From: a virus
Length of the DNA stretch: 35,476 nt
Direction: 5' to 3' (one strand)
IMG/VR virus record: IMGVR_UViG_3300047546_001285
Location: 1 to 35,476 of that record
Position numbers and translations under genes: made by a program. A model generated the notes under the pieces. That model did no database searches, had not been told where the DNA came from, and saw only the letters and a program-made list of their open reading frames with translations. Below, piece by piece: positions 157-33,851 of this stretch; position 1 is the first letter of the stretch, and each line of letters opens with the position of its first letter.

Positions 157-1231
157 GTACGACTTAGACGCATACCTGAAATCATACATCGCTGCTACAC
201 AAAAGGCGATATGTGAGTATTCTCAAAATCAAATTGACGATTCTGTTTATGATGTTCCTTGTCATTCTTACGAAGAACACATCAAGAAGTGTTTGTTCCT
301 GAAATTTTGCTTGGAAAACATCGAATGTTATTCTGACGAAGAGCAAGACTACGTTATTTCATTGGCTAACCGTTATGCCAAGAACTGTGGTGGTTGTGTT
401 GTAACAGATGCTGAGCTTGCTGCGTTTAAAAATACCCCAATGGGCAAAGAACTGATTGGTGCGTTTTTGGATGCAGACGTAAAGAAATATAAAGATAAGA
501 GTGGGGTCTCAGATGGCGTAATTATCTCAATAGTAAACACCTACGTATTAGAACTAAAAGCCGCTGGAATATGGTCTAAATTCTACGCAATCTATCCTTT
601 CTTGGGAGGAACATCAGCAACAACATCTTATAACCTCAAAGACGCTGACTACTATAAAATCAACTGGGCAGGCACAATGTCATATGGAACATTGGGTGTC
701 GATTTTGATGGAGTATCAGGCTTTGGGGATACTAACTTTGACTTTAGTGCAATTTCCTCAACAATTGAGAATATTCACTTTTCATTCTATACACCAGACG
801 CAAACGGTGGACTTGCTAACGTACCAATGGGTGTGGGTAGTACTGCCGCTGATGACCGTATTCGAATGGCATTTGACGCAGGAACAAATAACTACTATGC
901 TGATATGTGGAGTAATGGAAGCGTTGCTGGTCGTGTTCTTGTTGCTGGATTGGGTGCACCTGCTGGTCACTATTTGGCAACTCGATATAGTGCTTCTGCT
1001 GCCTTCGTTTATTTGGATGGTGTTCAAATGGCAACAAATGCAACAACTGTTGATGTAAGTGATGTACCTTCTGATACATTTTATGTGGGTGCTACAAATT
1101 TAGCTGGGGTGGCCTCAGGTTTCACAACCAAAACTTTCGGATTAGCCACAATTGGTCAACACTTGACCGCCTCAGACATCACTGCATTTCAAACAATAAC
1201 TGATAAATTTTTAACCTCGTTAGGACGATAA
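146..1231 (+). CDS. Putative receptor-binding or tail-fibre protein with LamG-like C-terminal domain
   Basis: This 361-residue protein starts at GTG 146, overlapping the end of the previous gene by 11 bases. No earlier start fits as well. Residues 1-90 form a helical, Cys-containing head region. From about residue 130 it carries the module ELKAAGIWSKFYAIYPFLGG followed by a beta-rich domain of about 180 residues. It ends with a helix, HLTASDITAFQTITDKFLTS. The same start and end signatures flank the body of the protein at 5901-7268. That arrangement is typical of concanavalin A/LamG-like lectin domains in Bacteroidetes phage tails. Glycan or surface binding at the virion tip is inferred from fold type and position. 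The lectin fold is a family-level impression. Confidence 0.65.
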   Translation: MAVKYDLDAYLKSYIAATQKAICEYSQNQIDDSVYDVPCHSYEEHIKKCLFLKFCLENIECYSDEEQDYVISLANRYAKNCGGCVVTDAELAAFKNTPMGKELIGAFLDADVKKYKDKSGVSDGVIISIVNTYVLELKAAGIWSKFYAIYPFLGGTSATTSYNLKDADYYKINWAGTMSYGTLGVDFDGVSGFGDTNFDFSAISSTIENIHFSFYTPDANGGLANVPMGVGSTAADDRIRMAFDAGTNNYYADMWSNGSVAGRVLVAGLGAPAGHYLATRYSASAAFVYLDGVQMATNATTVDVSDVPSDTFYVGATNLAGVASGFTTKTFGLATIGQHLTASDITAFQTITDKFLTSLGR

Positions 1232-1240
1232 CTCATAAAC

Positions 1241-1825
1241 ATGTTTACAAGAGAACAAATTGAAAAGGCTGTTAAATCTAAGGGTTATAAGTACTTCGAG
1301 AACGGAGACTATAACATGAATGTAATCGGAATTCGCAATAGCGGAATAGGTAATAAGGTTACAGATTTATTCGACGATTGGTTGACTCTTTCTTTCAAGA
1401 TTGATGGAGTATGGCAATTTTATATTTGGAATGCTACTACCGATCCAGGAAAAGCTCCTATGCTCAAAGGAAATAATGGAACAGGTACTGCTCGTGTAGT
1501 TCCCGGTCAATATCCCGGTTCTCATTTTATAGGCTTACATCAGGGTAAATATGAGGCCCTCAAACAAAAAGCCAACGTGAAGGTTTATCGCGATGCTGAC
1601 AAAGATTCGGAGTACGATACAGACAAAATCACCGAGGGGGTTTATGGAATCAATATCCACAAGGCTGGTCAAGATTCAAAAATCATCTCAACGTGGAGCG
1701 AGGGTTGTCAAGTGTTTAAAAGAGTAAAGGACTTTGACGTATTTATGAAGTTCTGTAAAACAGCTGCTAAACTACACGGCAACTCATTTACCTACACTCT
1801 TATCGAAAGTAAAGACATTATTTAA
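1241..1825 (+). CDS. Putative endolysin with L,D-transpeptidase-like catalytic motif
   Basis: This 194-residue protein has no signal peptide. Residues 133-158 contain GVYGINIHKAG, then SEGCQVF. A His (H140) lies 13 residues before a Ser-x-Gly-Cys (S153-C156), which resembles the H...S-x-G-C active site of YkuD/L,D-transpeptidase-like enzymes. The region around residues 88-100 (PGQYPGSHFIGLHQG) may form the substrate groove. I infer a peptidoglycan-active enzyme, either a virion-associated or a lysis hydrolase, cutting or exchanging peptide bonds in the host wall. It lies between two tail-fibre genes, which suits either role. An unrelated Cys peptidase is the main alternative. Confidence 0.55.
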   Translation: MFTREQIEKAVKSKGYKYFENGDYNMNVIGIRNSGIGNKVTDLFDDWLTLSFKIDGVWQFYIWNATTDPGKAPMLKGNNGTGTARVVPGQYPGSHFIGLHQGKYEALKQKANVKVYRDADKDSEYDTDKITEGVYGINIHKAGQDSKIISTWSEGCQVFKRVKDFDVFMKFCKTAAKLHGNSFTYTLIESKDII

Positions 1826-1834
1826 TCCCTCTTA

Positions 1835-4800
1835 ATGGCAGCACTCGATAATATAGCATCAGAGTTATTAAAGTCTGCTAATGAAGCGGATTTAATATTT
1901 AAAAGAACTCGTGACCAAGCACAGAGGGACAAGGCTGTTCGTCTGCGTAGAATTGTTGAGAATTTGCGCCAATTAATAATTGGTGATATGCTCAAGTCCA
2001 CTTATGATACAGATGACGATGGTGTTGTAGATGCCTCTGAGACCGTTCGCATAATTGTAAGAAATAGCACGGGATCTACTTTAAATAAAGGATCTGTAGT
2101 TTATCTTAGCGGAGCAACAGGAAATAGACCTAATGCTCTCTTGTCTCAAGCAAATGCTGAGTCTACTTCATCTAAAACTATCGGTATTGTAATTGCTAAT
2201 ATTCCAAACAATAGTGATGGATATGTTGCAGTAAGTGGTACATTACACGATTTGGATACATCGGCCTTTACGGCAGGTAGTGATGTTTGGTTATCTCCAA
2301 CCGTAGCCGGGGGCCTCACTACAACTGTACCGACTGAACCCAACCATTCAGTTTTCATAGGTTATATAGCACGTTCACATCCCACCCAAGGACGATTAGT
2401 AATTTTAATTCAAAATGGATATGAACTAAATGAACTACACGATGTAAACGCCCCAACTCCCTCGAATGGAGATTTGCTTCAATATGATTCAGTTAATAAT
2501 TATTGGAAAAACGTAGCCTCCTCAGTTGCTGTTCCAACTCCAACGCTCGCACAGGTAACAACGGCGGGGAATACGACTACAAATGGAATAGTACTGGGGT
2601 CTGCTACAGCTATAACGGCATCTCCATATACGCTACAGGTGGTAGGCGGATCTGGAGGAAGTGCAATATTCTCAAACGCAGCAAAAACGCAAGGGTTAAA
2701 CATTAACTTAACAACGGCTGGAGAGACAAGGATATATGGAGATTATTTTGGAGCTGGAGTAGATCAAAAGTTGATACTTGGAACATTTGCAAACAGGGCC
2801 ACACAACTTGTTCTTCAGACATCAGGAAACGTAGGGATTGGAACTACTACTGACGCTGGGTACAAGTTGGACGTTAATGGCACAATAAGATCAACCAGCT
2901 CTATCTGGACAGATTTTTTGTCTCCCGTTGGATCAACTATGTATATTTATAGCATAGGGCTATCTGGAGGTGCGTATAACAGATTAAATATTTATTACAA
3001 TAGTGTAAACGGATTTGTAATGCAATCCGATGGTGGTGGTGGTGGAAGTAGAAGTATGAGTGTATTCGGAGGGGGCCCTGGAGGTGTTTTGAACTTAGGA
3101 ACAAACGGGGCAACAAGATGGACACTACTTAGCAGTTATGATGCATCAGGGGCAGGTCACTTTATACCTAACGGAACAAATACATATGATATAGGAAATT
3201 CTTCTAACACAGTAAGAAACCTATATTCCAATCGTGCCATTTTTTCTGGATCAGTGACGGCATCGGCAGCAATTGCAAATGCTGTTTCTATTACAAATAC
3301 ACTCGTAGCGGCAGCTAACAACGACGTGCTTGTTGGACTAGACATCAACCCTACGTTTACTAATGGTGCATTTACGGGGGTAACGAATACGACTTTAAGA
3401 GTTACGGGAAATAGTACTTTAATTGGTAATCTGACTATAACGTCGAATAATGGAAGCATAATAAACCAAAACTCATATGCTTCAAACGTTTTTACCGTTA
3501 AGGCTGTAAATAATACCACAGATATAGGTGGTATGATAATAAATGCAGGAACGGGTGATAGCCGTTTTGGTAGCTTTAGAGTTGGTGGCGGTTATTATAC
3601 TACATTCTATGTAAACAATGCTGAACTAATAAGATTATCTACTTCCAATAACGTATTAATCGGAACCACTACAGACGCAGGCTATAAGCTAGATGTTAAT
3701 GGAACCGCGAGAATTCAGGGTGTAATAACAGGAAGTGTTGGGGGTGGTGCAATCACGTTAGGAGCTGCTTCTGCAAACCAATCTGCGATAAGCATAAATG
3801 GGTATTTTACTGGAAACGGAGCAATTATAACAAGCAATGCCAATGGAAGAAGTTTCAACTCTATAATTGGTGCTCAAAACTCTGGTATTATATCATCGTA
3901 CAACGGTAACGCTCAAGGACAAACGGTAGCTAACCATTATTTTTTAGCAACAGGGAACATCAATTTAACTGATGGGGCGATTGATTTACATGGTTTTGCG
4001 TTTACGCCAACAATTGTAAGTGAAACAGGCGCTACAATAAAAGCATTTAGTAGTACTTTATCTGCTGCATCAAACCATTACAACTTATATCTATCTGGGA
4101 CTGCACAAAACTATTTAGCTGGTAGAGTAGGTATTGGGTTGACTAATCCACAAGGGGCTACACATATTGCAGTAGCAAGTGGAACTCCTGCTTTAGTTTT
4201 GTCAGATGTTGGAGCACCAGATGCAATTCCAACCTTGCAATTTAGAAGAGGTCCATTATCTGCATTTTCTCTACAGGTTGATTTCCCAAGCAATAACAAA
4301 GCACGTTTTCAAATAGGAGATGCGGTTACTGGGTATGAATTTACAGGAGGCAACTTGGGATTAACTGGTGGAAGATCAATTGAGTTTGCAGGAATAACAG
4401 GACAAGTGGCTACCGCTATAGTAGGAAGCATACATACAGATAACAATAATGGTCAATTGTTATTTTCTACTCGTGGAAGTGCTGTAACAGCAGAAAGGGC
4501 AAGAATAACAAATAACGGAAACTTCTTGATCAACACTACCACAGACGCAGGCTATAAATTAGACGTTAACGGAACTGGAAGATTCAGCGGTCAGGTAAAA
4601 TTTGACAACTCCAATATCATCGCAACAGGAATAACCTCTCAAGTAGCAAACTTCCAAATAGCGAGAGCGAATACAAATACATCTGTTGAGATAATTGGTG
4701 GTGCTACATCTGTTAAATTTGACGCAACAAGTGCTTCAGCGTCAACACAGTTTGCAGGAAAAGTAGCCATTGGTTCTGCGTACTTTACGCCAACAGAGAT

Positions 4801-7554: not shown

Positions 7555-7785
7555 ATGAAAATCTTAGAGATATTCAAAGACGAACACGGTAAATTTTCAT
7601 CTAATCGCTTCGTGGGTATACTATGTGCTATTGCTTTGTGTGTTACTATGTATCACAATTCTTTTTCTGAAAAACATGTTGCACCCGCTTCTATTTTAGT
7701 AGAGTGTGTAACTGCTCTTGCATTCGGTGCATTGGGTCTAGGAGCAGCTAACAAAATCTTCAAGAAAAAGAATGGCGAAGGATAA
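7555..7785 (+). CDS. Putative holin
   Basis: This is a 76-residue protein with a short charged N-terminus (EIFKDEHGKFSSNRF), a hydrophobic segment at about residues 20-37 and a second at about 46-66. It ends in a basic tail (KIFKKKNGEG). This is the usual plan of small phage holins in Bacteroidetes phages: two membrane helices and a Lys-rich cytoplasmic end. It opens the second plus-strand operon and may have its own promoter. The likely role is timed permeabilisation of the inner membrane so that lysis enzymes act. A non-holin membrane protein cannot be excluded. Confidence 0.6.
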   Translation: MKILEIFKDEHGKFSSNRFVGILCAIALCVTMYHNSFSEKHVAPASILVECVTALAFGALGLGAANKIFKKKNGEG

Positions 7786-8062
7786 TCCAATACCAAAAAC
7801 GACAAGAGGTAAGAATGCAAATTACCTTCCTACAAAGAAGGGAGCAGGCATGACGGCTAAAGGTGTTGCTGCTTATCGTAAAGCAAATCCCGGAAGTAAA
7901 TTGAAGACTGCTGTAACTGGTAAGGTTAAGGCAGGTAGTGCAGACGCTAAGAGACGCAAATCATTTTGTGCTCGTAGTGCTGGTCAAATGAAAATGTTTC
8001 CCAAGGCGGCCTCAGATCCAAATTCACGTCTGAGACAAGCCCGTAAAAGATGGAAGTGCTAA
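7772..8062 (+). CDS. Basic protein of the DUF6321 type
   Basis: This 96-residue, strongly basic protein has phrases KKGAGMTAKGVAAYRKANPG, RRKSFCARSAGQMK and NSRLRQARKRWKC. These match the DUF6321 family, which is widespread in phages and of unknown function. Two Cys (in KSFC and the terminal WKC) and many Lys/Arg suggest nucleic-acid binding, possibly metal-assisted; that part is inference. The gene overlaps the holin gene by 14 bases and begins the run of basic proteins. Confidence 0.75.
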   Translation: MAKDNPIPKTTRGKNANYLPTKKGAGMTAKGVAAYRKANPGSKLKTAVTGKVKAGSADAKRRKSFCARSAGQMKMFPKAASDPNSRLRQARKRWKC

Positions 8063-9253: not shown

Positions 9254-9360
9254 AAAGTAACGCATCGACGTTCAGAGCAAAGCCACGAGTTAAACTTCGT
9301 AGGCATACCAAGCATAAAAATAAACACAAAAGTTCTAAACCCTATAACCGTCAAGGATAA
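9238..9360 (+). CDS. Tiny basic protein, 40 residues, conserved in Bacteroidetes phages
   Basis: ATG 9238 lies inside the end of the previous gene and the TAA overlaps the next ATG (TAATG at 9358-9362). The product starts MATKVKSNASTFRAKPRVKL and continues with alternating His/Lys/Ser to YNRQG, almost wholly basic. I recall similar STFRAKP proteins in many Bacteroidetes phages, with no known function. Confidence 0.65.
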   Translation: MATKVKSNASTFRAKPRVKLRRHTKHKNKHKSSKPYNRQG

Positions 9361-9704
9361 TGAAAGACGCTTGCTACACCAAAGTCAAAGCACAATATGA
9401 TGTATTTCCTTCAGCTAGGGCATCACAGGCAATTGCAAAGTGTAGAAAGTCAAAGGGTCAAGTAAAAAAGACAAAGGCGGGCTCAGATCTAAAAAGATGG
9501 GGAGCAGAGAAGTGGGTAGACACCAAGAGCGGTAAAGCCTGTGGTGCAGGAGGAAAGAATGAATATTGTCGTCCTTCGAAAAGAGTAAGTTCAAAAACCC
9601 CAGTTACCAAATCAGAATTGAGTCCATCGAAACTCGCAGCAAAGAAAGCTGAGAAGTCAAGAGTAGGAATGGGCAAACGAGTTACTAATGTAAAGAGAAA
9701 ATGA
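9360..9704 (+). CDS. Basic protein of the DUF5872 type
   Basis: This 114-residue protein has the phrases DACYTKVKAQYDVFPSARAS, RWGAEKWVDTKSGKACG and EYCRPSKRVSSKTP, which I recognise as DUF5872-like. The Cys residues (C4, C27 and those in KACG and EYC) may bind a metal. Very high Lys content again suggests nucleic-acid binding. Start and stop overlap both neighbours. Function is unknown. Confidence 0.7.
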   Translation: MKDACYTKVKAQYDVFPSARASQAIAKCRKSKGQVKKTKAGSDLKRWGAEKWVDTKSGKACGAGGKNEYCRPSKRVSSKTPVTKSELSPSKLAAKKAEKSRVGMGKRVTNVKRK

Positions 9705-12197: not shown

Positions 12198-12342
12198 CTT
12201 TGATAGCTTTTATCTTTTTCTTTTGGGCTTCTATCTGCTTCTGAGCCTTGTTCTTAGACTCTTCGTTTTGAGTCTGTTCATAGAATTCCCACCATCCGAA
12301 AAGCTTTTCGAGTTCTTTTACTTCTTTATTTATATTCGCCAT
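12163..12342 (-). CDS. Small helical protein of the packaging operon
   Basis: I prefer ATG 12342 (59 residues, MANINKEVKELEKLFGWW); an in-frame ATG at 12363 would overlap the upstream gene by 34 bases. The product has an aromatic core (GWWEFYEQ) followed by a Lys/Gln/Glu-rich coiled-coil stretch and a basic tail (KTSKVPKGK). It overlaps the next gene by 35 bases. I recall similar proteins next to terminase genes in Bacteroidetes phages, with no known function. Confidence 0.6.
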   Translation of the reverse strand: MANINKEVKELEKLFGWWEFYEQTQNEESKNKAQKQIEAQKKKIKAIKDGKTSKVPKGK

Positions 12343-12719
12343 AAGTTTATTGCTGTTTTCCAAAATTCTAAATCAAATTCAAGCATATCTCCTTCGAGTA
12401 TCTCCCACTCCAAAGACTTAACCAACTTAAATAGGTTTGCCATTGCGTGTAATTGAGCTACTGAGGGATTGCTGACATATCTGTAATCTCCGTTTAATCC
12501 TCCTTGAATAGCTAGGTGAATTTCAGTCTGAGGCCTCAGAACATGAATCTTTCCTTCTCTATCTAGGAAGTGAGTAAACAAGTCTTCTTTGTGACCTAAT
12601 CCTCCCATGTGATAAGTAGGAGTATCAATCTTCGGTTTCTTACGAGCATACTCTAATACCTCAGTAGCAACTAATCTATCTTCAGGTCTTGTGTATGTCC
12701 AATAGACGTAGAGTTTCAT
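12330..12719 (-). CDS. Unknown protein, 129 residues
   Basis: It begins MKLYVYWTYTRPEDRLVATE and contains YHMGGLGHKEDLFTHFLDRE. The C-terminus is acidic with Trp (SLEWEILEGDMLEFDLEFW). It is soluble and mixed alpha/beta. There is no motif I can name. It lies 3 bases after the DUF3310 gene, in the same operon as terminase. A 14-base palindrome, TCTGAGGCCTCAGA, lies within it at 12527-12540. Confidence 0.6.
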   Translation of the reverse strand: MKLYVYWTYTRPEDRLVATEVLEYARKKPKIDTPTYHMGGLGHKEDLFTHFLDREGKIHVLRPQTEIHLAIQGGLNGDYRYVSNPSVAQLHAMANLFKLVKSLEWEILEGDMLEFDLEFWKTAINLWRI

Positions 12720-19282: not shown

Positions 19283-20972
19283 CGAATGTTAAATAGCTTT
19301 GTGAATAAAGGATATCAAGTAGTCGTTCAAATCTACCATCTTCCGAATAGCGTCCTGTTAATTTATCAAAATTATAGTCCACTGAACCAAGTTGTCCTCT
19401 GAAGTGATACTTCATTTTCTGCACGTGTAAAGATACAGTGTGGTCTTGTGCTTGGTCTGTGTAATCCCTGTGTATTGCAATACCCACATCAGGAGCATTG
19501 AAGAAGTGAGAACTCTGTGCAATATCATAGAGTCTTGGTACAGCATATTGACCGTTACTCTTTTCCATCTTGCGAGGGTGAGCAGCCAGTGTGATGTTGA
19601 TATTATATTTCAAGGCTGTCTTCTTCATCTTACGAAGCATCTCACCGATTCTTTCGTGGGCACTTTCTTCCTTGCTTTGAGTATCAATGTAGTTGAATGG
19701 GTCAATGCACAAACAATCAATTCCGTATCGTTTAATCATAGTCACGGTCAAATCCAAGATATGATTGAGAGTAAACTCTTCCATCTCCTCTACGTTGAAG
19801 AAGAAGAAATGCTTATCCAACTTGGTCATGATAACTCTAATCTCTTCAGGAGTCATGGTTGACAATGCCTTGCCTGAGATTTGTTCAGCCATACGAGATA
19901 GTTTCAGTGGTGCTACGTTCTCGGGTGAAAAGATTGCAAACTTCCAATCAGATATAATCGCAAGACGTGCATACATATAATCCAACCACGTGCTCTTTCC
20001 TGAACCCGGTACGCCCGTAAGTACTACGAGTTCGCCTTTGTTCCAAGTTAAGTGCTTATCTGTCTGCGTCATAGCAACAGTCTCACCCTTTGGGTATCCT
20101 GTTCGTGCAAATCCAACTACGTCTTGAATGTAATCCGATGTGCGTGCTATCTCCTTGATTGGAATGGGTTGGGCCTCAGAATATAATTTCTTAATGGCTT
20201 CTACCCCATGTGCCTTGAGTACATCGTTAGCATCCTTGGCATCTTCGGGAAAGTGAATTACAAAAACATTTGATTGATCAAAGCGTCTCGCAAGGTCCTC
20301 CTTGAGTTTTTGTCCCGGACCATCGTTATCAGTCGCGAGAATAATCTTCTTGTTTTCAAAATAAGAATACGTATCATCTAACCATTGTAAATTGTTAACT
20401 CCTTTGCTTGCTCCGTTGGGACAAGAGACAGCGAATGGGTATCCTGCTTGATACCATACCATTGCTTCTTCTTCTCCTTCGCAAATAATAATCTCACTGC
20501 TATCTTTGATTCTGTTCAAGTTGTAGGGAATCTTCTTTGCTCCACTAACCATCTTGAACTTCTTATCTGAAGTTTTGAATTTTATATTTACTAATTCGTC
20601 TCCGTCATAGTAATTAAAGCAAATGACCTTGTGTTTCTGCTCATCTTGTGGCATCCACTCAATAGACATCGAGACACCAAAGGCATCTACAGTTTCCTGC
20701 GAGATACCTCTGGACTCGAAGTATTTAGTCACTCTGCTATCGGGTGCTTCGGTTTTGGGTTCGGGCTTTGTGTATTGTTTTACACTAGCTACTGAACCTT
20801 TCTTTTGACAGTGATGGCACTTAAAGAGACCCTCGTCTATGTTTACTGATAGAGAAGGGTCTGAGGCTTTCTTTCTTGTGTGTGCACACCACGGACATTG
20901 TGTTTTAATAATTCCACTAAAGTGTCCTTTAGTGTCAATACCTGCTTTAGTTAGTTCGGCTTGATAACTCAT
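19263..20972 (-). CDS. Primase-helicase of the T7 gp4 type
   Basis: This is a 569-residue fusion of primase and replicative helicase. A zinc ribbon is formed by C26, C29, C52 and C55 (CPWC, FKCHHC). The TOPRIM primase core has IIICEGEEEAM (about 161-171) and ILATDNDGPG (211-220). The RecA-like helicase has Walker A LTGVPGSGKST (318-328), a Walker B-like CLCIDPFNYID and ITLAAHPRKM. It would unwind the fork and lay down RNA primers for the DNA polymerase encoded next to it. The C-terminus (residues after about 560) overlaps the start of the polymerase gene. Confidence 0.9.
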   Translation of the reverse strand: MSYQAELTKAGIDTKGHFSGIIKTQCPWCAHTRKKASDPSLSVNIDEGLFKCHHCQKKGSVASVKQYTKPEPKTEAPDSRVTKYFESRGISQETVDAFGVSMSIEWMPQDEQKHKVICFNYYDGDELVNIKFKTSDKKFKMVSGAKKIPYNLNRIKDSSEIIICEGEEEAMVWYQAGYPFAVSCPNGASKGVNNLQWLDDTYSYFENKKIILATDNDGPGQKLKEDLARRFDQSNVFVIHFPEDAKDANDVLKAHGVEAIKKLYSEAQPIPIKEIARTSDYIQDVVGFARTGYPKGETVAMTQTDKHLTWNKGELVVLTGVPGSGKSTWLDYMYARLAIISDWKFAIFSPENVAPLKLSRMAEQISGKALSTMTPEEIRVIMTKLDKHFFFFNVEEMEEFTLNHILDLTVTMIKRYGIDCLCIDPFNYIDTQSKEESAHERIGEMLRKMKKTALKYNINITLAAHPRKMEKSNGQYAVPRLYDIAQSSHFFNAPDVGIAIHRDYTDQAQDHTVSLHVQKMKYHFRGQLGSVDYNFDKLTGRYSEDGRFERLLDILYSQSYLTFDENSNL

Positions 20973-20975: not shown

Positions 20976-21317
20976 TTAAATAATAAATGCTCGTTTTCCT
21001 CTTATTGGGAACTTCCAAGTCTTGATTGCTGATTTCCAACTCTTCATTTTGTTCTTGCCGATCATCCAGCCTTTTGCTTCATAGAAGTTCCAAAACTTTT
21101 CTGCTTCTTGTTGTGCGTCTATTACGTCCATAGAATTTAGGTATGAGGCCACCTCCTCCATTGTTGGTGTTTGAAATCTACGACTTGGGGTCTCAGTCTC
21201 AATACTTTCTGGCAATGAGTAAAACAACTCATCTAAGCTTGACCATTCTCCCCTAGTTTGTCCTTCAATCAATCCCTTCAGGATTAATCTAATTGTTTGA
21301 TATTCTTCGTTTTTCAT
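20976..21317 (-). CDS. Possible replication accessory protein with C-terminal GW-KMKSWKSA module
   Basis: This 113-residue protein has an acidic helical N-terminus. Its C-terminal module (TMEEVASYL, KFWNFYEAKGWMIGKNKM, then SWKSAIKTW) recurs in many Bacteroidetes phage proteins, often next to or fused with replication initiator or helicase-loader genes. It sits 3 bases upstream of the primase-helicase gene, which fits a helicase loader or initiator fragment. The N-terminal DNA-binding part of longer homologues is absent. The function is inferred. Confidence 0.55.
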   Translation of the reverse strand: MKNEEYQTIRLILKGLIEGQTRGEWSSLDELFYSLPESIETETPSRRFQTPTMEEVASYLNSMDVIDAQQEAEKFWNFYEAKGWMIGKNKMKSWKSAIKTWKFPIRGKRAFII

Positions 21318-21601
21318 ATTTTAAAATCTGAGTATTTAAGTCCCCATTGTACATTAACCCACATCATCTCTTTCTCGGCTAATTTCTTAGTCATTTTTAA
21401 TTCTTTTCTGAGATAAGCGACTCCCCACTGTTTCCATTCTTCTGCTTGTGCAGTAGTCATAGTCCATTGGGTATACCAATCATCCTTGCGACCTTTGACA
21501 TCGTCGAATGTAACTTCGTGACCTGCAATAATAAACATCTGATTAATCAAATCTACTACTGCCTTTTCTCGTTTTTGTTCTCTAGTTAATCGTTTTTCCA
21601 T
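21314..21601 (-). CDS. Conserved Bacteroidetes-phage protein, 95 residues
   Basis: It is helical and Trp-rich: REKAVVDLINQMFIIAGHEV, DDWYTQWTMTTAQAEEWKQW and NVQWGLKYSDF. I recognise this protein type from many Bacteroidetes phages, near replication genes, always without a function. It overlaps the next gene by ATGA and the previous one by 16 bases. No catalytic motif is seen. Confidence 0.7.
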   Translation of the reverse strand: MEKRLTREQKREKAVVDLINQMFIIAGHEVTFDDVKGRKDDWYTQWTMTTAQAEEWKQWGVAYLRKELKMTKKLAEKEMMWVNVQWGLKYSDFKI

Positions 21602-21891
21602 AGCTCGTATAAACTGTTTTTTGTTGCAAACTTAATGTAGTTTTCTTTCTCCTCCAAGATTTCTGTAATAGTTGTTGTCATCCAAGTAAACTGAAATGCT
21701 TGTGGGTCTAGAATAAATGACCTACCTACTGCTGCTTTCTTGTGTAATTTTTTAAAGCTGCCGTCCTCAGTCCACTCAATCCATCCTACTTGATGACCTA
21801 CGTTAAGCAAGCCATCGTTTTCTCTGATTAACTTGTATTTAAACAACTCATCCAGGTTTAAGTCAATCTTAACTTGTTTTATCTTGCTCAT
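21586..21891 (-). CDS. Unknown protein, 101 residues, with strong Shine-Dalgarno
   Basis: A mixed alpha/beta protein (KIKQVKIDLNLDELFKYKLI, then GWIEWTEDGSFKKL and EKENYIKFATKNSLYEL). It has no known motif. The start ATG 21891 is preceded by AAGGAGGTAAACA, one of the few strong Shine-Dalgarno sites in the window. That site lies inside the last codons of the upstream gene, so the two are translationally coupled. Confidence 0.65.
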   Translation of the reverse strand: MSKIKQVKIDLNLDELFKYKLIRENDGLLNVGHQVGWIEWTEDGSFKKLHKKAAVGRSFILDPQAFQFTWMTTTITEILEEKENYIKFATKNSLYELWKND

Positions 21892-22238
21892 TGTTTACCT
21901 CCTTGTATTTTATCACGCATCCATTTTGCGCCTGCCTCAAATTCATTGTCAAAACCCGAGTAATTAATTGCCTGTTTATGTACCTCCTCATCACTTGGCA
22001 GTTCAATGGGGGTATAATACCTAGGGGTATAATACCTATGCAAAAAATCATCTACAGTTCTTGTTGCACCAATTAATCCAATTAACATATGCTTGACTTG
22101 TTCTTCAGTGTATAGTTTCATACTTTGTTTATTGTTGCTCATTGTTTTATCTGTTAAAAATTTATTTAGTGTTTCACTTGTTTCATTGCTTAACGCTTCA
22201 TCAAGTTTGTTTTCAAGTTTATTTAAGTCAAGGCTCAT
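21888..22238 (-). CDS. Unknown protein, apparent fusion of two small modules
   Basis: This is a 116-residue protein. Residues 1-31 (LNKLENKLDEALSNETSETL) form one module. From M33 (MSNNKQSMKLYTEEQVKHM) the sequence looks like a separate protein start. The DNA around M33 repeats the start region of the gene at 27444-27653 with one mismatch in 30 bases. An in-frame fusion, or a second internal start at 22142, is possible. The end (AGAKWMRDKIQGGKQ) carries the next gene's Shine-Dalgarno. A 15-base tandem duplication encodes YYTPRYYTP. Function unknown. Confidence 0.6.
   Translation of the reverse strand: MSLDLNKLENKLDEALSNETSETLNKFLTDKTMSNNKQSMKLYTEEQVKHMLIGLIGATRTVDDFLHRYYTPRYYTPIELPSDEEVHKQAINYSGFDNEFEAGAKWMRDKIQGGKQ
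22009..22037. repeat. Tandem duplication of GGGGTATAATACCT
   Basis: GGGGTATAATACCT occurs at 22009-22022 and again at 22024-22037 (period 15). It adds five residues in frame (YYTPR) to the protein at 21888-22238 and looks like a recent slippage or duplication event. Confidence 0.8.
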
Positions 22239-22513
22239 TGCTCACCTCCTCCGTAGGTTTCGTTGTAGTATTCATTAAAGTCAACTTTCATTAGACCAGT
22301 TTCCCAACTTTTTATGTGTTGGTCTTTTTCCATTTCTTTGGCTTGGTTAAGTATTTCTTTCATACTTAAGTTGGGTTTTAACATTTCTTCTTCTAACCAT
22401 TCAATTGCCGTCTGTTTTTTTGGCTTCCCCGTGTTGTTTCCCTTTGCAAATTGATTAACCTTATCAAGGTACTCAACTGCATTCATCTCCGTTTGTTGTT
22501 TATTGTTTGTCAT
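22235..22513 (-). CDS. Small accessory protein, NETYGGGEQ family
   Basis: This 92-residue protein has KKQTAIEWLEEEMLK in the middle, QAKEMEKDQHIKSWETG, and the end FNEYYNETYGGGEQ. I know the family from many Bacteroidetes phages; the function is unknown. It is a paralogue of the genes at 22842-23117 and 27444-27653. Its own start has a Shine-Dalgarno at 22520-22524 (GGAGGTAACAA). Its last codons carry the Shine-Dalgarno for the next gene. Confidence 0.72.
   Translation of the reverse strand: MTNNKQQTEMNAVEYLDKVNQFAKGNNTGKPKKQTAIEWLEEEMLKPNLSMKEILNQAKEMEKDQHIKSWETGLMKVDFNEYYNETYGGGEQ
22236..22272. repeat. 37-base direct repeat, copy 1 (copy 2 at 22843-22879)
   Basis: An identical 37-base segment spans the end of one NETYGGGEQ-family gene and the start codon of the next gene, here and at 22843-22879. 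It holds the C-terminal codons, the GGAGGAGGTGA Shine-Dalgarno and the ATGA junction. Being perfect at DNA level, it is probably a young duplication or a recombination joint. Confidence 0.85.
22245..22252 (-). promoter_or_regulatory. Strong Shine-Dalgarno inside coding sequence (for 21888-22238)
   Basis: On the minus strand GGAGGAGGTGAGCA precedes ATG 22238. The bases encode Gly-Gly-Gly-Glu-Gln at the end of the upstream protein. Equivalent sites are at 22852-22859 (for the gene starting 22845), 22520-22524 (for 22513) and 21898-21902 (for 21891). Most other genes in the window have none. Confidence 0.75.
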
Positions 22514-22530
22514 TTGTTACCTCCGTATGC

Positions 22531-22845
22531 TTATGTGTGTGATTTAATGTGTTCAATTGCTTTTTCTATGTTCTGATACCCTGTACCAATCTCTTGCCAA
22601 TCACCCCCGTACTGAGGCGTTACAAAACATCTGTACAGTCCATTGATTAATCTTACTTCACCATGTGCCTCTTCGCCAAAATCTATTTCATAGACAACTT
22701 GTTGTTTGTCTTTCTCCATAAGTTCTTTTAATTTTTCTTTACGCTCTTTTCTTAGTTGCTCTCGGTTTTCAATACGCCATTTGTTCTTTGCTATTGCATC
22801 CGATTGTTCTGCGTTTTCAAGGAGTTGTTTTATCTTGTCGTTCAT
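22531..22845 (-). CDS. Unknown protein with N-terminal coiled coil
   Basis: In this 104-residue protein, residues 1-45 are a charged helix or coiled coil (KWRIENREQLRKERKEKLKE). Residues 48-104 form a small beta-rich domain (EEAHGEVRLINGLYRCFV, then GTGYQNIEKAIEHIKSHT). It starts at ATG 22845 with the Shine-Dalgarno carried by the upstream gene. I do not recognise the family. Confidence 0.62.
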   Translation of the reverse strand: MNDKIKQLLENAEQSDAIAKNKWRIENREQLRKERKEKLKELMEKDKQQVVYEIDFGEEAHGEVRLINGLYRCFVTPQYGGDWQEIGTGYQNIEKAIEHIKSHT

Positions 22846-24175: not shown

Positions 24176-24522
24176 GTTAGGAGGTCTTTGAATTTTTTAC
24201 GCTTATCAATTTGTTCTGTTCTATGTTTCTCTTTCTCTAGTTCAGGTACTCTTCTCAGCATGCTTTCTTCAAGAATATCTGAGGCGCTAGTTTCAAGGAA
24301 GTCTACAAAGGTAATGTATTTTGCTAATTCTGTCCAAGAAGATTTTCTAATTACTTCAGTTGCCTTTTCGTAACTTGAACAATCCTTGTAGATCATAGCA
24401 TCACCAATTATATCTGACAGCATATCAGTACGATAGCGAATGTAGTTGTCGTCTGTTATTGCAAAAATAAACCCGCTGGGTGTGTAGATTAATATCTTTT
24501 CCCAATCAAATGAGTCCTTCAT
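24172..24522 (-). CDS. Unknown protein, 116 residues
   Basis: The N-terminus is beta-rich and aromatic (FDWEKILIYTPSGFIFAITD) and the second half is helical and charged, ending EKEKHRTEQIDKRKKFKDL. It overlaps the end of the serine recombinase gene by 17 bases. No motif is known. It may be an accessory of the recombinase by position only. Confidence 0.55.
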   Translation of the reverse strand: MKDSFDWEKILIYTPSGFIFAITDDNYIRYRTDMLSDIIGDAMIYKDCSSYEKATEVIRKSSWTELAKYITFVDFLETSASDILEESMLRRVPELEKEKHRTEQIDKRKKFKDLLT

Positions 24523-25201
24523 ATATGTTGTTTCTTAGTATTTTGGTTATGGTTGTTGATTCTATTCTCCCACCTTTCTTGCCTTTGATTCCTTGTTTGT
24601 TTAGTTCACGGGCTATGTCTTTGTAAGTGAGGCCTCCCTCCCTCAAATCGTAAACCGTTTTGACTATCTTCATTTCACTATCATCAGGTATTAGTTTCCC
24701 ATCAACTTTGAGAAAGCCCAATGGGGTAACGCCACAATATACCTTGCGTTCTTTCTTTAAGTGTGACATAACACTTGTGATAAGTTCTCCCCTTTGATTG
24801 GATTCAAACTCAGCAAATGCTGCAATCATTTGAAGCATAAGTTTGCCGTGAGATGTACGAGTGTCTACTTGAAAGTCTTGCGTGTAGAATGCCACGTCTT
24901 TCTTTTCGAGGAAGTCAATCCATTTCAAAGTATCTTTGAGGTTCCTACCAAAACGAGATAGACTGTATACGGCAACTACATCAATCTTCTTTTGTTCAGC
25001 CAATCTAATCATCTTCATAAACTCAGGGCGATTCTCAAATCGTTTACCTGATACGCCTGGATCTGAGAACTGATAACGAATCTCGCAGTCGTTCATATTA
25101 CAGAACGCTTGTAGTTTCTCTAACTGATTGTCTAACGAAGAGCCGTCTTCGACTTGGTCAACGTGTGACACCCTCGTGTATATCGCTGCTACTTTCTTCA
25201 T
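24506..25201 (-). CDS. Serine recombinase (resolvase/invertase type)
   Basis: In this 231-residue protein, residues 1-140 are a serine-recombinase catalytic domain: AAIYTRVSHVDQ with the nucleophile S12, DPGVSGKRFENRP, YSLSRFGRNLKD (catalytic Arg) and GKLMLQMIAAFAEFE leading into the long E helix. Residues 150-231 are a short recombinase/helix-turn-helix region (GLTYKDIARELNKQGIKGKK). The zinc ribbon and coiled coil of large serine integrases are absent, so it is nearer to resolvases or invertases. I saw no flanking inverted recombination sites. It could resolve genome multimers or switch DNA. Confidence 0.85.
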   Translation of the reverse strand: MKKVAAIYTRVSHVDQVEDGSSLDNQLEKLQAFCNMNDCEIRYQFSDPGVSGKRFENRPEFMKMIRLAEQKKIDVVAVYSLSRFGRNLKDTLKWIDFLEKKDVAFYTQDFQVDTRTSHGKLMLQMIAAFAEFESNQRGELITSVMSHLKKERKVYCGVTPLGFLKVDGKLIPDDSEMKIVKTVYDLREGGLTYKDIARELNKQGIKGKKGGRIESTTITKILRNNIYEGLI

Positions 25202-25544
25202 TTTTAGTTTGCTTTTCTTTTAGTTTTCCAATTGATGATTTAATAATCTGATTCATAATTGTATTGTAATCTACTCCGATTGTATTGGCGTATGCTGCCA
25301 ATGTCGTGGAGTTTCTTCGTGTCATTGTAACATTGATTAACTTGTTAGGCTTTCTTTTGGCAAATGCTTTTCGTGATAATCTAACTCTATGTTTGATGCA
25401 GTAGTAATAAACTAAATCAGACACCAATACATCTACGTCTCTAAAATCAAATTTGTGTGCAAGTTGATGCAATTGATCGTACAGTCCATTAGGAATACTA
25501 ATGGTTGTTTGGTGTTTTGATTTTTGTTTTCTTACTTTCTCCAT
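25158..25544 (-). CDS. Putative ribbon-helix-helix DNA-binding protein
   Basis: I chose ATG 25544 (128 residues, MEKVRKQKSKHQTTISIPNG). Residues 12-50 (TTISIPNGLYDQLHQLAHKF) and residues about 70-110 (NKLINVTMTRRNSTTLAAYA) each look like a beta strand followed by two helices, so two RHH-like units may be present. It is basic. It overlaps the recombinase gene by 44 bases, an unusually long overlap, and may regulate it or help it bind DNA. The RHH call is by pattern and not certain. Confidence 0.5.
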   Translation of the reverse strand: MEKVRKQKSKHQTTISIPNGLYDQLHQLAHKFDFRDVDVLVSDLVYYYCIKHRVRLSRKAFAKRKPNKLINVTMTRRNSTTLAAYANTIGVDYNTIMNQIIKSSIGKLKEKQTKNEESSSDIHEGVTR

Positions 25545-25663
25545 CTTGTCCAATATATCCAAAATCCTAATAAGCCAATGATTGTAAAGTCTACAATACA
25601 AGGGGCAAAGTCAGACCAAAAGTTCTTTAGTCTAATCGATAGAAAATACAATCGCTTCTTCAT
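25532..25663 (-). CDS. Small membrane protein, 43 residues
   Basis: A short frame from ATG 25663 to TAA 25532 overlaps both neighbours. It begins MKKRLYFLSIRLKNFWSD. It has one hydrophobic helix (IVDFTIIGLLGFWIYW) and a basic end (TRWRK), giving a positive-inside single-pass protein. Support comes from the good membrane profile and from the gap it fills between two genes. Confidence 0.45.
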   Translation of the reverse strand: MKKRLYFLSIRLKNFWSDFAPCIVDFTIIGLLGFWIYWTRWRK

Positions 25664-26036
25664 TGATGTCGATTTTATTTACAATCATATTGTCTTCACA
25701 TTGAAAGTAGTAGGCAAGATTGGAACCTAATGCGATGTATGGTCCTCCGCTTGGGTCTACAAAGTCAATAACATTCTCCTTCGACTTTACGTGCTTGGAG
25801 TATTTATTAAAGAAGTCATAGTCTGTTTCCATCTTTCTTTCAAACTCTTCACGAGAAAGATTGGGGTCTGAGGCCTCAGTCATATAAACAATGTAGGCTG
25901 TATCATAATCGTTAGCCAATCCAAATCGAAGACCCATTTCAAACATGCCTGTCATCTTAACAGTGTTTCCTTCTTTCTCAAATCGAATACGGTCACCGTA
26001 ACGATTACTTCTCTCAATTATTATATGATTATCCAT
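25632..26036 (-). CDS. Unknown acidic protein, 134 residues
   Basis: It is a soluble mixed protein: IIIERSNRYGDRIRFEKEGN, TEASDPNLSREEFERKMETD and DPSGGPYIALGSNLAYYFQ. No family is recognised. The codons for Glu-Ala-Ser lie in the palindrome CTGAGGCCTCAG at 25868-25879. About 40 AT-rich bases separate it from the next gene upstream. Confidence 0.6.
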   Translation of the reverse strand: MDNHIIIERSNRYGDRIRFEKEGNTVKMTGMFEMGLRFGLANDYDTAYIVYMTEASDPNLSREEFERKMETDYDFFNKYSKHVKSKENVIDFVDPSGGPYIALGSNLAYYFQCEDNMIVNKIDINEEAIVFSID

Positions 26037-27266: not shown

Positions 27267-27447
27267 TTCTTTTTTCTTTTTCTTCTTTGAGTTCATCAAA
27301 TGTAAAATCAAATCCCTGGCTTGGGGTCTCACTCTCCCATCTATCCAACATAGCAAGGATATGGGCATACTTATCGTCTGAATACATCATATGATGCACA
27401 AGTAAAGCAATAAGTTGTTTGCGTTGATTAATGTCTAATCTTTTCAT
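27244..27447 (-). CDS. Small basic helical protein, 67 residues
   Basis: It contains DINQRKQLIALLVHHMMYSD, SETPSQGFDFTFDEL, then a basic end KEEKEKRIVRNRKK. It overlaps the upstream gene by ATGA. No family recognised. Its SETPS codons carry one copy of the GGGGTCTCA motif (27323-27331). Confidence 0.58.
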   Translation of the reverse strand: MKRLDINQRKQLIALLVHHMMYSDDKYAHILAMLDRWESETPSQGFDFTFDELKEEKEKRIVRNRKK

Positions 27448-27657: not shown

Positions 27658-28167
27658 TTATACTCCTATGATTCTAATTGAATATTGACTGAATACAAAC
27701 TCACGGTTGTTGTAGGCTTCTTGAAAGCCAGTAAGTGAGTAAACTTTACCAACAGCCTCAGCATTCAGCATAAACTCTTCGTCTGTCATTTCATCATCAT
27801 CTTCATCATCAACTAAGTACACACGTAGTTCTTTATCTACATGACCTTTGTACGCAGAGATAAATCCTGTGAGCATTGTGTACTCGTTTGGATACTGTGC
27901 GGGAAGATCAAGCCAGCAATCTACGGTTCTAAGCATATGGTACATGGTTGTTCTGTCGCGTCCAAAGGATTGTGCTACGAGGTCTTGATTGATTTTCTCT
28001 AATTCAAGAGATACATAGCAACCGATGTTGCGTATGATAACCATATTTGTTACCTGTGTACTTGTGTAGGTTTCTTTCGATACACCGAAATAAGATTCTA
28101 ATTGTGAGTGAATCTTTTCTAATTTGTCTGCTGTTGGTTTGTCCAATACTCTTTTAGATTTTGTCAT
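27658..28167 (-). CDS. DnaA C-terminal-domain-like protein
   Basis: This is a 169-residue protein. Residues 10-90 resemble domain IV of DnaA: QLESYFGVS, a helical segment, then DLVAQSFGRDRTTMYHMLRT. In DnaA the equivalent helix-turn-helix with a GRDHSTV-like signature reads the origin. The AAA+ part is missing. Residues 100-135 are very acidic (DDEDDDEMTDEEF) and the end (FQEAYNNREFVFSQYSIRII) is a separate small module. It may bind the phage or host origin, or act as a repressor. It overlaps the upstream gene by 14 bases. Confidence 0.62.
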   Translation of the reverse strand: MTKSKRVLDKPTADKLEKIHSQLESYFGVSKETYTSTQVTNMVIIRNIGCYVSLELEKINQDLVAQSFGRDRTTMYHMLRTVDCWLDLPAQYPNEYTMLTGFISAYKGHVDKELRVYLVDDEDDDEMTDEEFMLNAEAVGKVYSLTGFQEAYNNREFVFSQYSIRIIGV

Positions 28168-28390
28168 TGTTTGATTTGTTTGAATTGTTAAATATTTCGA
28201 TAAGTTGTTTTAGGTCTGAGGCCTCAGATATAAAAATATCCATATCACCAACCTGTACTTGCATTACACCCATTTCGTTGATGTCACCAATAAGGTAGTC
28301 ATAATCTGTAATCTTGAGTCGCATAAACTCATAGTCATCAAAAACCATAGACTCAAAGCCCATGTGAATTAAATCTTCTTTATTTATCAT
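28154..28390 (-). CDS. Small acidic protein, 78 residues
   Basis: Begins MINKEDLIHMGFESMVFDDY, contains two beta hairpins (MRLKITDYDYLIGDI and VMQVQVGDMDIFI), and ends in a helix (LKQLIEIFNNSN). Proteins of this plan are frequent in Bacteroidetes phages, without known function. The palindrome TCTGAGGCCTCAGA (28215-28228) encodes its SEAS residues. Confidence 0.62.
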   Translation of the reverse strand: MINKEDLIHMGFESMVFDDYEFMRLKITDYDYLIGDINEMGVMQVQVGDMDIFISEASDLKQLIEIFNNSNKSNNDKI

Positions 28391-29134: not shown

Positions 29135-29554
29135 TTAATAACCGTTTTCTCTTAGTTCTATTTCTTGTTGGAAGTGATACCCCCAAGGTGTCAAAGCAAA
29201 TGACTCAACGAGTCCTACGTAATACCAAAAGATATCGTACAATGAGTCGTCTGATATTTCTGATAATGTCATTGGGTCGGGGGTCTCAAACCTCATCCCT
29301 TCCTCATACGCACGTCTCCATAACATTGTATCTCTCCACTCTCTAACACCCAATGCACACAACATAAACCTAACAGGTTTCTTTGCAATGGTATCAATGT
29401 CAAGGTTAGGCTTCTCTTGCCACTCCGCAAGAAGTTTACCCTGCTTATCTTCAATGACACCGCTAGTCAAGGCATCATCATAAATACTTCTGTCATAAAA
29501 CCATAGGGCTGTATTGCCCATGAATTTCTTTGTTTGTTCTGTTTTAGCTTGCAT
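29135..29554 (-). CDS. Unknown Trp-rich protein, 139 residues
   Basis: A helical, aromatic protein: NTALWFYDRSIYDDALTSG, KPVRFMLCALGVREWRDTML and DIFWYYVGLVESFALTPWGY. No catalytic motif that I can name. It overlaps the first paralogue of the tandem array by 11 bases. Its FETPDP codons carry a GGGGTCTCA copy (29280-29288). Confidence 0.58.
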   Translation of the reverse strand: MQAKTEQTKKFMGNTALWFYDRSIYDDALTSGVIEDKQGKLLAEWQEKPNLDIDTIAKKPVRFMLCALGVREWRDTMLWRRAYEEGMRFETPDPMTLSEISDDSLYDIFWYYVGLVESFALTPWGYHFQQEIELRENGY

Positions 29555-29864
29555 AACTTAATTGGTTTAATCGATTAATTTCTTCATAAATTAATTTAAG
29601 GTCGTTGTTTATTTTTTCAATCAGTTCGTCTGTTGGTTTACAGTAATATATTTCTTTCGTTCTATGGTCATCGGGAGTTGCCCATCCCCGAACGTATATT
29701 GTAGGCTCAATATGGTGGATACCCCACTCAGGACAAGCGGATGACTGTATGACAATGCCTCTTGTGTTTATCTGAATATGATCCATATTACGAACCCGCT
29801 GATACACTACTCGCATGAATACATCATCGTCTTTTCTTACGAGCAAAATTCTAAAGGGGTACAT
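29544..29864 (-). CDS. Tandem-array paralogue 5 (PFRILLVRK/RVVYQ family)
   Basis: This is a 106-residue member of a five-gene family lying head to tail. The N-terminus MYPFRILLVRKDDDVFMRVV is followed by Y-Q. The middle has YVRGWATPDDHRTKE, matching the family's xxRGD-x-x-x-x-DH place with GWA instead of GDQ. The C-terminal helix ends NNDLKLIYEEINRLNQL. It is the most diverged in the central loop. No known family. It overlaps the next copy by 14 bases. Confidence 0.68.
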   Translation of the reverse strand: MYPFRILLVRKDDDVFMRVVYQRVRNMDHIQINTRGIVIQSSACPEWGIHHIEPTIYVRGWATPDDHRTKEIYYCKPTDELIEKINNDLKLIYEEINRLNQLSYAS

Positions 29865-30123
29865 GATTTTTTATTGTTTGGTTAATTTGATTTAATTTTA
29901 AAATAGTTTCTTCTGTGTATGGTACACTCTCTACCAAATTATTGTAAGGGGAATAATCCCCTCTTAGGTACACGCCAAAAAACATACCTGTAATTAATTG
30001 TGGAGACCAAGAGCAACGAACTATAAAATTATCTGTGACTAGGTCTGGTCGACCGTCTTGATAAACAACACGGTAGAATAGACGGTCTCCTCTTTTTACG
30101 ACTAATACTTTAAACTTGTTCAT
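29851..30123 (-). CDS. Tandem-array paralogue 4
   Basis: This 90-residue protein has NKFKVLVVKRGDRLFYRVVY then QDGRPDL at the N-terminus. GVYLRGDYSPYNNLV keeps RGD but has lost the DH pair. The C-terminal helix is EETILKLNQINQTIKNH. The first 40 residues are closest to paralogue 3 (RVVYQEGRP). It starts inside the end of paralogue 3. Function unknown. Confidence 0.68.
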   Translation of the reverse strand: MNKFKVLVVKRGDRLFYRVVYQDGRPDLVTDNFIVRCSWSPQLITGMFFGVYLRGDYSPYNNLVESVPYTEETILKLNQINQTIKNHVPL

Positions 30124-30391
30124 GGATTGAATTGTTTATTCTTTCAACAAAAGCCACGATGTCATCTGAGACCCGACCTTCTGATCTTTGGTGATACTCG
30201 TGATCAGCACGTCTCTGATCTCCTCGTAAAAATATTGTACCAATATCATCCTCAACAGCAAGTTCTACGCAGTCACAACAATTAATTTTTACATCGATGT
30301 CACGGTTTAACGTAGGTCGACCCTCTTGATATACTACACGAGTATAAAGATAGCCTTGTCTTCTAACGATTAAGAGTCTAAAAGGGTACAT
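30110..30391 (-). CDS. Tandem-array paralogue 3
   Basis: This 93-residue protein has YPFRLLIVRRQGYLYTRVVY at the N-terminus, then QEGRPTL, a CCDC cluster, and IFLRGDQRRADHEYHQR, the full central signature. The C-terminal helix is DIVAFVERINNSIHEQV. It and paralogue 1 share FLRGDQR-ADH almost exactly. Overlaps are 14 bases with paralogue 4 and 22 bases with paralogue 2. Function unknown. Confidence 0.7.
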   Translation of the reverse strand: MYPFRLLIVRRQGYLYTRVVYQEGRPTLNRDIDVKINCCDCVELAVEDDIGTIFLRGDQRRADHEYHQRSEGRVSDDIVAFVERINNSIHEQV

Positions 30392-30654
30392 TTTATTTTT
30401 TCATTAAATTCGTGAAGAGATGGAAGATATCTATCTAGATTGGAAAAATTATTTGGTCTGTGTTCTTCGTGAGATATATCAAAACCATCTATTATATTTT
30501 CTTTTCCGTATCTACTTCTGGGATATGTCGAATAGTAACCATCGTTGTATTTGATTCCGTACTCGGGGTAGTCTTTTCCGTTTGAATATACTCTGCGAAA
30601 AGAATAGCCGTCGTTTTTTCTAACTATGAGGATTCTAAATGGATATGTTTTCAT
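30370..30654 (-). CDS. Tandem-array paralogue 2
   Basis: This 94-residue protein has KTYPFRILIVRKNDGYSFRR at the N-terminus, then V-Y-S-N-G. The central signature is largely lost but a HEEHRPNN remains where DH normally stands. A Tyr-rich loop (KYNDGYYSTYPRSRYGKE) is unique to it. The C-terminal helix is SLHEFNEKIKCTLLD. It is framed by overlaps of about 20 bases on both sides. Confidence 0.68.
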   Translation of the reverse strand: MKTYPFRILIVRKNDGYSFRRVYSNGKDYPEYGIKYNDGYYSTYPRSRYGKENIIDGFDISHEEHRPNNFSNLDRYLPSLHEFNEKIKCTLLDS

Positions 30655-30952
30655 GGTAGTAATTGTTTACTTCTTGTATCATTGATTTTAAATCATCAAT
30701 ATCTTCATATTCATAATATGATTTATCTATTCTGTGATCTGCGTGACGTTGGTCACCTCTAAGAAATAAAATATTTTCGCTAGACCTTAACTCGGGAGTA
30801 TTGACTGACTTAATCTTTAGTGGTCCCCAATGTTCAGTGTATTGGTAATGATCGGGATAAATAACAGGGTCCTGTCTAACAACTCTTGTGAGTACTTGAT
30901 CGTCTTTGATGACGCACAATACTTTTATATTTTTGAAGTTTATACTTTCCAT
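30635..30952 (-). CDS. Tandem-array paralogue 1
   Basis: This 105-residue protein is the first gene of the array. The N-terminus is NFKNIKVLCVIKDDQVLTRV then VRQDP. The central signature is ILFLRGDQRHADHRIDK. The C-terminal helix is DIDDLKSMIQEVNNYYHENI. Behind its start lies the hairpin that holds a GGGGTCTCA copy. It probably begins the array's translation, and the others follow by overlap. No function can be assigned. Confidence 0.7.
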   Translation of the reverse strand: MESINFKNIKVLCVIKDDQVLTRVVRQDPVIYPDHYQYTEHWGPLKIKSVNTPELRSSENILFLRGDQRHADHRIDKSYYEYEDIDDLKSMIQEVNNYYHENISI

Positions 30953-30960: not shown

Positions 30961-30999
30961 GATTAAAAATGGGGTCTCAGATTACTCATCAACCCCATT
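30961..30999 (-). terminator. Probable terminator or attenuator between amidotransferase and array
   Basis: On the minus strand AATGGGGT pairs with ACCCCATT (30992-30999 with 30968-30975), 8 pairs with a 16-base loop, followed by TTTAATC. The T tract is short and the loop large, so read-through is likely. The loop side contains the GGGGTCTCA motif. Confidence 0.45.
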
Positions 31000-31011
31000 A
31001 AACCAAACTAA

Positions 31012-33114: not shown

Positions 33115-33134
33115 AAGTTTTTAATTAGGTTTTA

Positions 33135-33497: not shown

Positions 33498-33500
33498 TGC

Positions 33501-33599
33501 TTACCATTTTACTTTTTTAAGTTCAAGCATCCAACAAATGCCATAAGTGATTAGTAACAATAACGCTACCGCTATGACTGAATCAGTTAGTATTTTCAT
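33501..33599 (-). CDS. Tiny single-pass membrane protein, 32 residues
   Basis: ATG 33599 overlaps the upstream TGA (ATGA) and its TAA is 3 bases before the next start. Residues 5-24 form one membrane helix (TDSVIAVALLLLITYGICW) and the tail is basic (LKKVKW). The framing by neighbours supports it. Function unknown. Confidence 0.55.
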   Translation of the reverse strand: MKILTDSVIAVALLLLITYGICWMLELKKVKW

Positions 33600-33760
33600 G
33601 CCCGATAGTATTTATTTTCTGTTGTGATACCATACTTGAACGCCTTACGTTCTTTGGGTTGAATTGCTGACGTTCTTGTTTGACCGTTTACAACCTTCCG
33701 TTTGTAACGATTGCGCAGTTCGTCAATCTCTGCGGTTGTGAGGAATTTAACTTGAATCAT
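33596..33760 (-). CDS. Small basic protein, 54 residues
   Basis: ATG 33760 is preceded by the AACCAATTAATTAAAAA leader shared with the gene at 33863-34345. The product MIQVKFLTTAEIDELRNRYK is followed by a basic middle and FKYGITTENKYYRA. It may bind nucleic acid. The shared leader and the ATGA junction with the next gene make it convincing. Confidence 0.6.
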   Translation of the reverse strand: MIQVKFLTTAEIDELRNRYKRKVVNGQTRTSAIQPKERKAFKYGITTENKYYRA

Positions 33761-33783
33761 TTGTTTTTAATTAATTGGTTTGG

Positions 33784-33851
33784 AAATGTGGTTGCGTTTG
33801 ACACACTGACAACCCCCACCCAATTAAGAGAGGGGGTCTCAGACCACATTT
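33784..33851 (-). promoter_or_regulatory. Nested hairpin element between operon genes
   Basis: AAATGTGGT (33784-33792) pairs with ACCACATTT (33843-33851). Inside it ACCCCC (33812-33817) pairs with GGGGGT (33832-33837), with CTGA and TCAG between. The structure holds one GGGGTCTCA copy and fills the gap between 33760 and 33863. It has no T tract, so it is more likely a regulatory or processing element than a terminator. Confidence 0.5.

Follow-up and report, generated by a model that had tools for sequence, protein, structure and literature searches.

The virus record analysed here, a partial genome of 35,476 bases (hereafter the window), carries a dispersed motif whose sites arose repeatedly and independently, at new places, in different phage lineages. 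The word GGGGTCTCA is one dialect of a wider 12-bp non-palindromic motif (approximately TKSGGNCTCAGA, occasionally the perfect dyad TCTGAGGCCTCAGA), because other forms are equally enriched and the strands are balanced once the GGGG form is set aside. Very probably, the motif is a recognition site. The clade that carries it probably consists of uncultured phages infecting Bacteroidota.

An earlier note on this DNA had described eight copies of GGGGTCTCA, all on the plus strand, against an expectation far below one. Each copy was recovered where it had been placed, and the reverse complement was absent from the window. Dinucleotide shuffles gave a mean of 0.13 copies and a maximum of 1. In a k-mer count against a second-order Markov model, the check that the note had proposed, GGGGTCTCA ranked first among over-represented 9-mers. 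In the same model GGCCTCAG, GCCTCAGA and the palindrome TCTGAGGCCTCAGA matched the GGGG form in enrichment. The equal enrichment of GGCCTCAG and TCTGAGGCCTCAGA, and the restriction of polarity to the GGGG form, had been missed. The excess of the core GGYCTCA is also real, although the count given for it, about 27, was too low; we found 33 on both strands, compared with 5.5 expected. These occupy 30 distinct places, because three palindromic places count twice. The words with the strongest enrichment in the window belong to GGNCTCAG(A), with a consensus close to TKSGGNCTCAGA that at times becomes the palindrome TCTGAGGCCTCAGA. As had been claimed, gene context is mixed: three GGGGTCTCA copies are sense within a gene, three are antisense and two are intergenic. 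The principal sites are as follows.

503–511, plus strand: GGGGTCTCA site, sense in a gene; retained in G003 and L049
5844–5852, plus strand: GGGGTCTCA site, sense in a gene
19203–19211, plus strand: GGGGTCTCAGA site, antisense within the DNA polymerase gene; retained in 9/9 aligned relatives
21187–21195, plus strand: GGGGTCTCA site, antisense in a gene; GGYCTCA retained in relatives, with a C/T change and adjacent indels
27323–27331, plus strand: GGGGTCTCA site; retained in L055, L010 and L051 (G003)
29280–29288, plus strand: GGGGTCTCA site, antisense in a gene; retained in L055, absent from L051 (G003)
30971–30979, plus strand: GGGGTCTCAGA site, intergenic, upstream of gene 30635–30952
33833–33841, plus strand: GGGGTCTCAGA site, intergenic
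12527–12540, no strand: palindromic TCTGAGGCCTCAGA, within gene 12330–12719; retained in most aligned relatives
25867–25880, no strand: palindromic form with core CTGAGGCCTCAG
28215–28228, no strand: palindromic TCTGAGGCCTCAGA, directly upstream of the DnaA-like gene
8008–8016, plus strand: GGCCTCAGA site in the DUF6321 gene; retained in nearly all relatives, possibly through protein constraint
15528–15536, plus strand: GGTCTCAGA site, antisense within the ribonucleotide reductase gene
20172–20180, plus strand: GGCCTCAGA site, antisense within the primase-helicase gene
2037–2044, minus strand: GGTCTCAG site within a tail-fibre-like gene
16552–16559, minus strand: GGTCTCAG site within the ribonucleotide reductase gene
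30165–30173, minus strand: GGTCTCAGA site in a small gene

Most words that differ by a single base from GGTCTCAG or GGCCTCAG were near background; the third position was the exception and takes any of the four bases. A matrix built from 411 sites reads approximately T-T/G-G/C-G-G-N-C-T-C-A-G-A; an A follows the core, weak T/G/C preferences precede it, and G is scarce in the bases that come after. The motif is thus an imperfect dyad. Its right half, CTCAG, is strict and its left half looser; when both are perfect the result is CTGAGGCCTCAG.

Polarity had been presented as a hallmark of the motif. The 8:0 distribution of GGGGTCTCA stands for the window. However, polarity is not a defining property: it depends on lineage, its sign flips with respect to the terminase gene, and about half of the related sites lie on the opposite strand. 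Excluding the GGGG form, GGYCTCA sites in the window were split 13 plus to 12 minus, and the restriction of polarity to the GGGG form had a one-sided hypergeometric probability of ~0.015. Other GGGG runs in the window were skewed 55:36 in the direction of GGGGTCTCA. Against that background the 8:0 split reaches no more than p = 0.026. Measured relative to the terminase strand, the GGGG form was distributed 0:8 in the window, 2:8 in G003 and 1:8 in G465. Conversely, the direction was opposite in G469 (3:0), G016 (2:0) and G470 (2:0). Across genomes the motif mostly leans toward the GGGG-richer strand, and polarity mostly follows G-run skew and gene layout. Sense sites outnumbered antisense sites 207 to 143 in 22 genomes and fragments. 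TGA blocks one antisense frame, so that the motif can be read in three frames as sense but in only two as antisense, and a ratio of 60:40 is predicted. Gene direction was rejected as a cause of polarity, since this stop frame alone accounts for the ratio.

We shuffled synonymous codons, a procedure that preserves every protein and the codon pool. Shuffled window genes were expected to hold 0.89 copies of GGYCTCAG and 19 were observed, so codon use does not explain the motif, as the earlier note had argued. The equivalent figures were 1.35 expected and 36 observed for the relative G461, and 1.14 and 1 for the motif-negative genome G466. Third codon positions were 78% conserved within motif sites, compared with 63% in the flanks, and selection acts on the DNA itself. 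Site sharing between lineages was mapped through protein alignments. The window shared 0/12 mappable sites with G465, 2/12 with G461 and 5/19 with G003; sharing between lineages was typically 0–30%. Conservation of the motif at non-homologous places in related phages, which had been suggested as a check, was therefore found. Because mappable sites are mostly unshared, they were gained independently, and shared gene ancestry is no explanation. It is extremely improbable that codon choice, amino-acid usage, composition or chance produced the motif. Antisense copies do often give the same peptides (S/T-E-T-P, E-A-S-D), and G-run skew accounts for part of the polarity. Nevertheless, synonymous shuffles and Markov models yield 5–25 fold fewer sites, some copies are intergenic, and third positions are conserved within sites.

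The motif occurred at 5–25 times expectation in related contigs of 20–72 kb and in near-complete genomes, with terminase identity down to ~61%. It was the top or near-top word in relatives at terminase identities down to 61–66%. In G003, the closest large relative, GGGGTCTCA was the top 9-mer by both-strand score (eight plus, two minus), and its sites were mostly at places unaligned to those of the window. The top word in more distant genomes was GGTCTCAGA, CTGAGACC or CTGAGGCC, enriched 5–25 fold or more. In whole genomes GGNCTCAG outnumbered its reversed control by 45:2 (G461), 44:2 (G464), 39:0 (G469) and 44:2 (G472). A sister clade (G466, G467, G468 and G471) was near background, and the corresponding ratios for its first three members were 6:5, 14:8 and 13:4. 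Density was ~1 site per 1–2.5 kb throughout a ~67 kb clade genome. Viral contigs were retrieved with the exact palindrome or with TTGGGTCTCAGATT, and the truly enriched ones encode relatives of the clade; unrelated contigs with either word were at background or GC-rich, so enrichment is essentially confined to relatives. A host-factor motif common to unrelated phages was rejected, since scanning viral contigs for the palindrome and for the 14-mer revealed enrichment essentially only in relatives. The motif-negative sister clade (L223–L234, L243–L244) shows mild enrichment of CCCCGGG. The word ACCRAAGGTT, repeated in G466–G468 and G471, was rejected as a dispersed motif because most of its copies are repeats inside one gene.

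Relatives of the window, identified through DNA polymerase and terminase, include genomes of 62–72 kb, three of which have end repeats of 77–127 bp. Terminase relatives were absent from cultured phage records and none were found in bacterial genomes. Among the core genes of the clade are those for a small serine recombinase, DNA polymerase, terminase, primase-helicase, a 113-aa protein (c10), and a YqaJ nuclease (c11) with its neighbour (c12); a TerS-like protein of 107 aa is also among the core DNA-binding candidates. Relatives encode a nuclease of the YqaJ/lambda-exonuclease type. Most genes in the window have no Shine-Dalgarno sequence upstream. This, together with the type of tail-fibre repeat, suggests a Bacteroidota host for the clade. 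Several adjoining genes at 21586–22845 (minus strand) do have strong GGAGG ribosome-binding sites, which most other genes lack. Small basic proteins of the DUF6321 and DUF5872 types are encoded close to terminase (7772–8062 and 9360–9704, plus strand), and a tandem row of small paralogues (MYPFRILLVRK-like) occupies 29544–30952 on the minus strand. A polar word around AACCAATTAA, with an A/T-rich leader, precedes several small-gene starts on the minus strand (upstream of 29554, 31803, 33114 and 34345) and is a possible promoter or leader element. The relatives G461, G464, G469, G470 and G472 encode a small C5-cytosine methylase-like protein (cluster c41); none was seen in the window.

The reader of the motif could belong to the host or to the phage. 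We counted GGTCTCAGA, GGYCTCAGA or GGNCTCAGA in sets of 47, 395, 248 and 194 genomes (~850); the sets overlap somewhat and consist almost entirely of Bacteroidota. None of these sampled genomes was enriched; the maximum was ~0.04 per kb, near the reversed control, compared with 0.39 per kb for GGYCTCAGA in the window. Since the sampled bacterial genomes and unrelated viral contigs are at background, the clade itself is a likelier source of the factor than the host. Thus, the reader is probably phage-encoded, although it may instead come from an unsampled host. Three proteins of the window were considered as binders.

24506–25201, minus strand: small serine recombinase, 230 aa (Resolvase PF00239, 7.5e-37; Recombinase PF07508, 1.8e-11)
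25158–25601, minus strand: tandem ribbon-helix-helix (Arc-like) protein adjoining the recombinase (phrog_582, 2e-6)
27658–28167, minus strand: DnaA domain IV-like helix-turn-helix protein (PF08299, 1.9e-6, under the Pfam cut-off)

The small serine recombinase is a possible binder. It occurs in motif-positive and motif-negative genomes alike; read by eye, its C-terminal loop separates strong-motif genomes from the motif-negative clade, G462 excepted. The recombinase gene is mostly preceded by the Arc-like gene, and two divergent recombinase types swap between lineages. The Arc-like protein was attractive because the motif is an imperfect dyad. However, it was not supported as the binder; membrane-like proteins occupy its position in the motif-positive genomes G016, G017 and G465. 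The DnaA-like protein is stand-alone, fast evolving and found in most relatives. The asymmetry of DnaA boxes made it attractive, but it too was not supported. The gene was not found in G017, which carries the motif, and residues of its recognition helix differ between lineages with a common motif; both observations count against a DnaA box array. Most other candidates were core genes that motif-negative genomes carry as well, and no protein was singled out.

The explanation that we find best overall, tentatively and at a little short of an even chance, is a dispersed site for a putative clade-specific factor, probably phage-encoded, that marks the phage's own genome. A trans-acting factor restricted to the clade, most likely encoded by the phage, would bind the motif. 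By doing so it would set the phage's genome apart from other DNA, as happens with Chi or DNA uptake sequences. In the least certain step, the motif would act when the phage recombines, replicates or packages its DNA, rather than in compaction or partition; such a role is plausible but somewhat less likely than not. More specifically, the motif may be an address word like a DNA uptake sequence or Chi, through which a phage-encoded reader would have recombination, replication or packaging favour phage DNA over that of the host or of rival phages, while dialects drift. This is conceivable, though somewhat unlikely. Exchange breakpoints between relatives were not significantly nearer the motif (P = 0.06 and 0.13–0.40), which leaves a recombination role unsupported.

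The likeliest of the alternatives, though still unlikely, is compaction, partition or anchoring by a sequence-specific architectural protein on ~30–45 sites per genome. Spread over the whole genome on both strands would suit such a protein, as would the imperfect dyad, the scarcity of close pairs in the window and in G461, and the over-regular spacing in G470 and G472. However, G003, G017 and G462 have random or clustered spacing, and no candidate protein was found. The Chi-type reading, in which the phage keeps sites recognised by host RecBCD/AddAB and so spares its DNA ends, is improbable. The motif is like Chi in being dispersed, over-represented, non-palindromic, uneven between strands and independent of coding, but it has no significant link to breakpoints and is not enriched in the sampled candidate hosts or in unrelated phages. 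Of the earlier interpretation, a real dispersed DNA-level motif is upheld, and a Chi-like, packaging or nucleoid role exerted by a phage protein is conceivable. Polarity as the motif's defining feature finds no support, nor, as far as the ~850 Bacteroidota genomes extend, does a Chi site common to phage and host.

Two further readings draw on phage systems, and we consider both very improbable. Localised nicks, known from phage tf, T5 and phiKMV-like phages, depend on a short consensus that is repeated along the genome and cut in one strand. Phage tf has 14 nick sites, TACT/RTGMC, on a single strand (PMC3517423), and in the window GGGGTCTCA is likewise confined to one strand. Conversely, the wider motif occupies both strands in many relatives, and strand preference reverses between lineages. 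Stoperators are operators for a phage repressor; in cluster A mycobacteriophages they are asymmetric, number tens per genome and have lineage-specific variants (PMC6550527, PMC9283540). Our motif shares these features. Stoperators mostly point one way with respect to transcription, whereas the motif has no orientation preference beyond the stop-codon expectation. Its sites are also mostly within genes, and no lysogeny module was recognised. As for a cognate repressor, the Arc-like protein is present, but at its locus in motif-positive G016, G017 and G465 none was found.

DNA uptake sequences are short non-palindromic words that occur ~1 per kb, on both strands and mostly in genes. Among known systems, it is these that the motif pattern appears most to resemble; it too is clade-specific, genome-wide, on both strands, coding-independent and divided into dialects. 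According to PMC3630211 and PMC1939737, the uptake sequences of Neisseriaceae and Pasteurellaceae have clade-specific dialects and are thought to serve self-recognition. They differ in belonging to bacterial chromosomes and transformation, whereas the motif belongs to a phage clade. We know of no uptake machinery or process in phages. Lambda exonuclease, a phage recombination nuclease, pauses at the short strand-specific word GGCGA (PMC7496540). The phages of this clade encode a YqaJ nuclease, for which pausing is putative; in contrast to the motif, genome-wide dispersal or selection is not known for GGCGA.

No account of such a motif in a phage was found in the open-access part of the literature that was searched. 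Words that mark a genome as self are known genome-wide in bacteria (Chi, DNA uptake sequences, KOPS), and a few phages have them in the form of operators or nick sites. The motif is a DNA signature by which metagenomic fragments can be assigned to the clade. A selected, clade-specific word with dozens of independently gained sites, in phages of ~67 kb, would make a self-recognition or genome-organising system of the phage's own testable.
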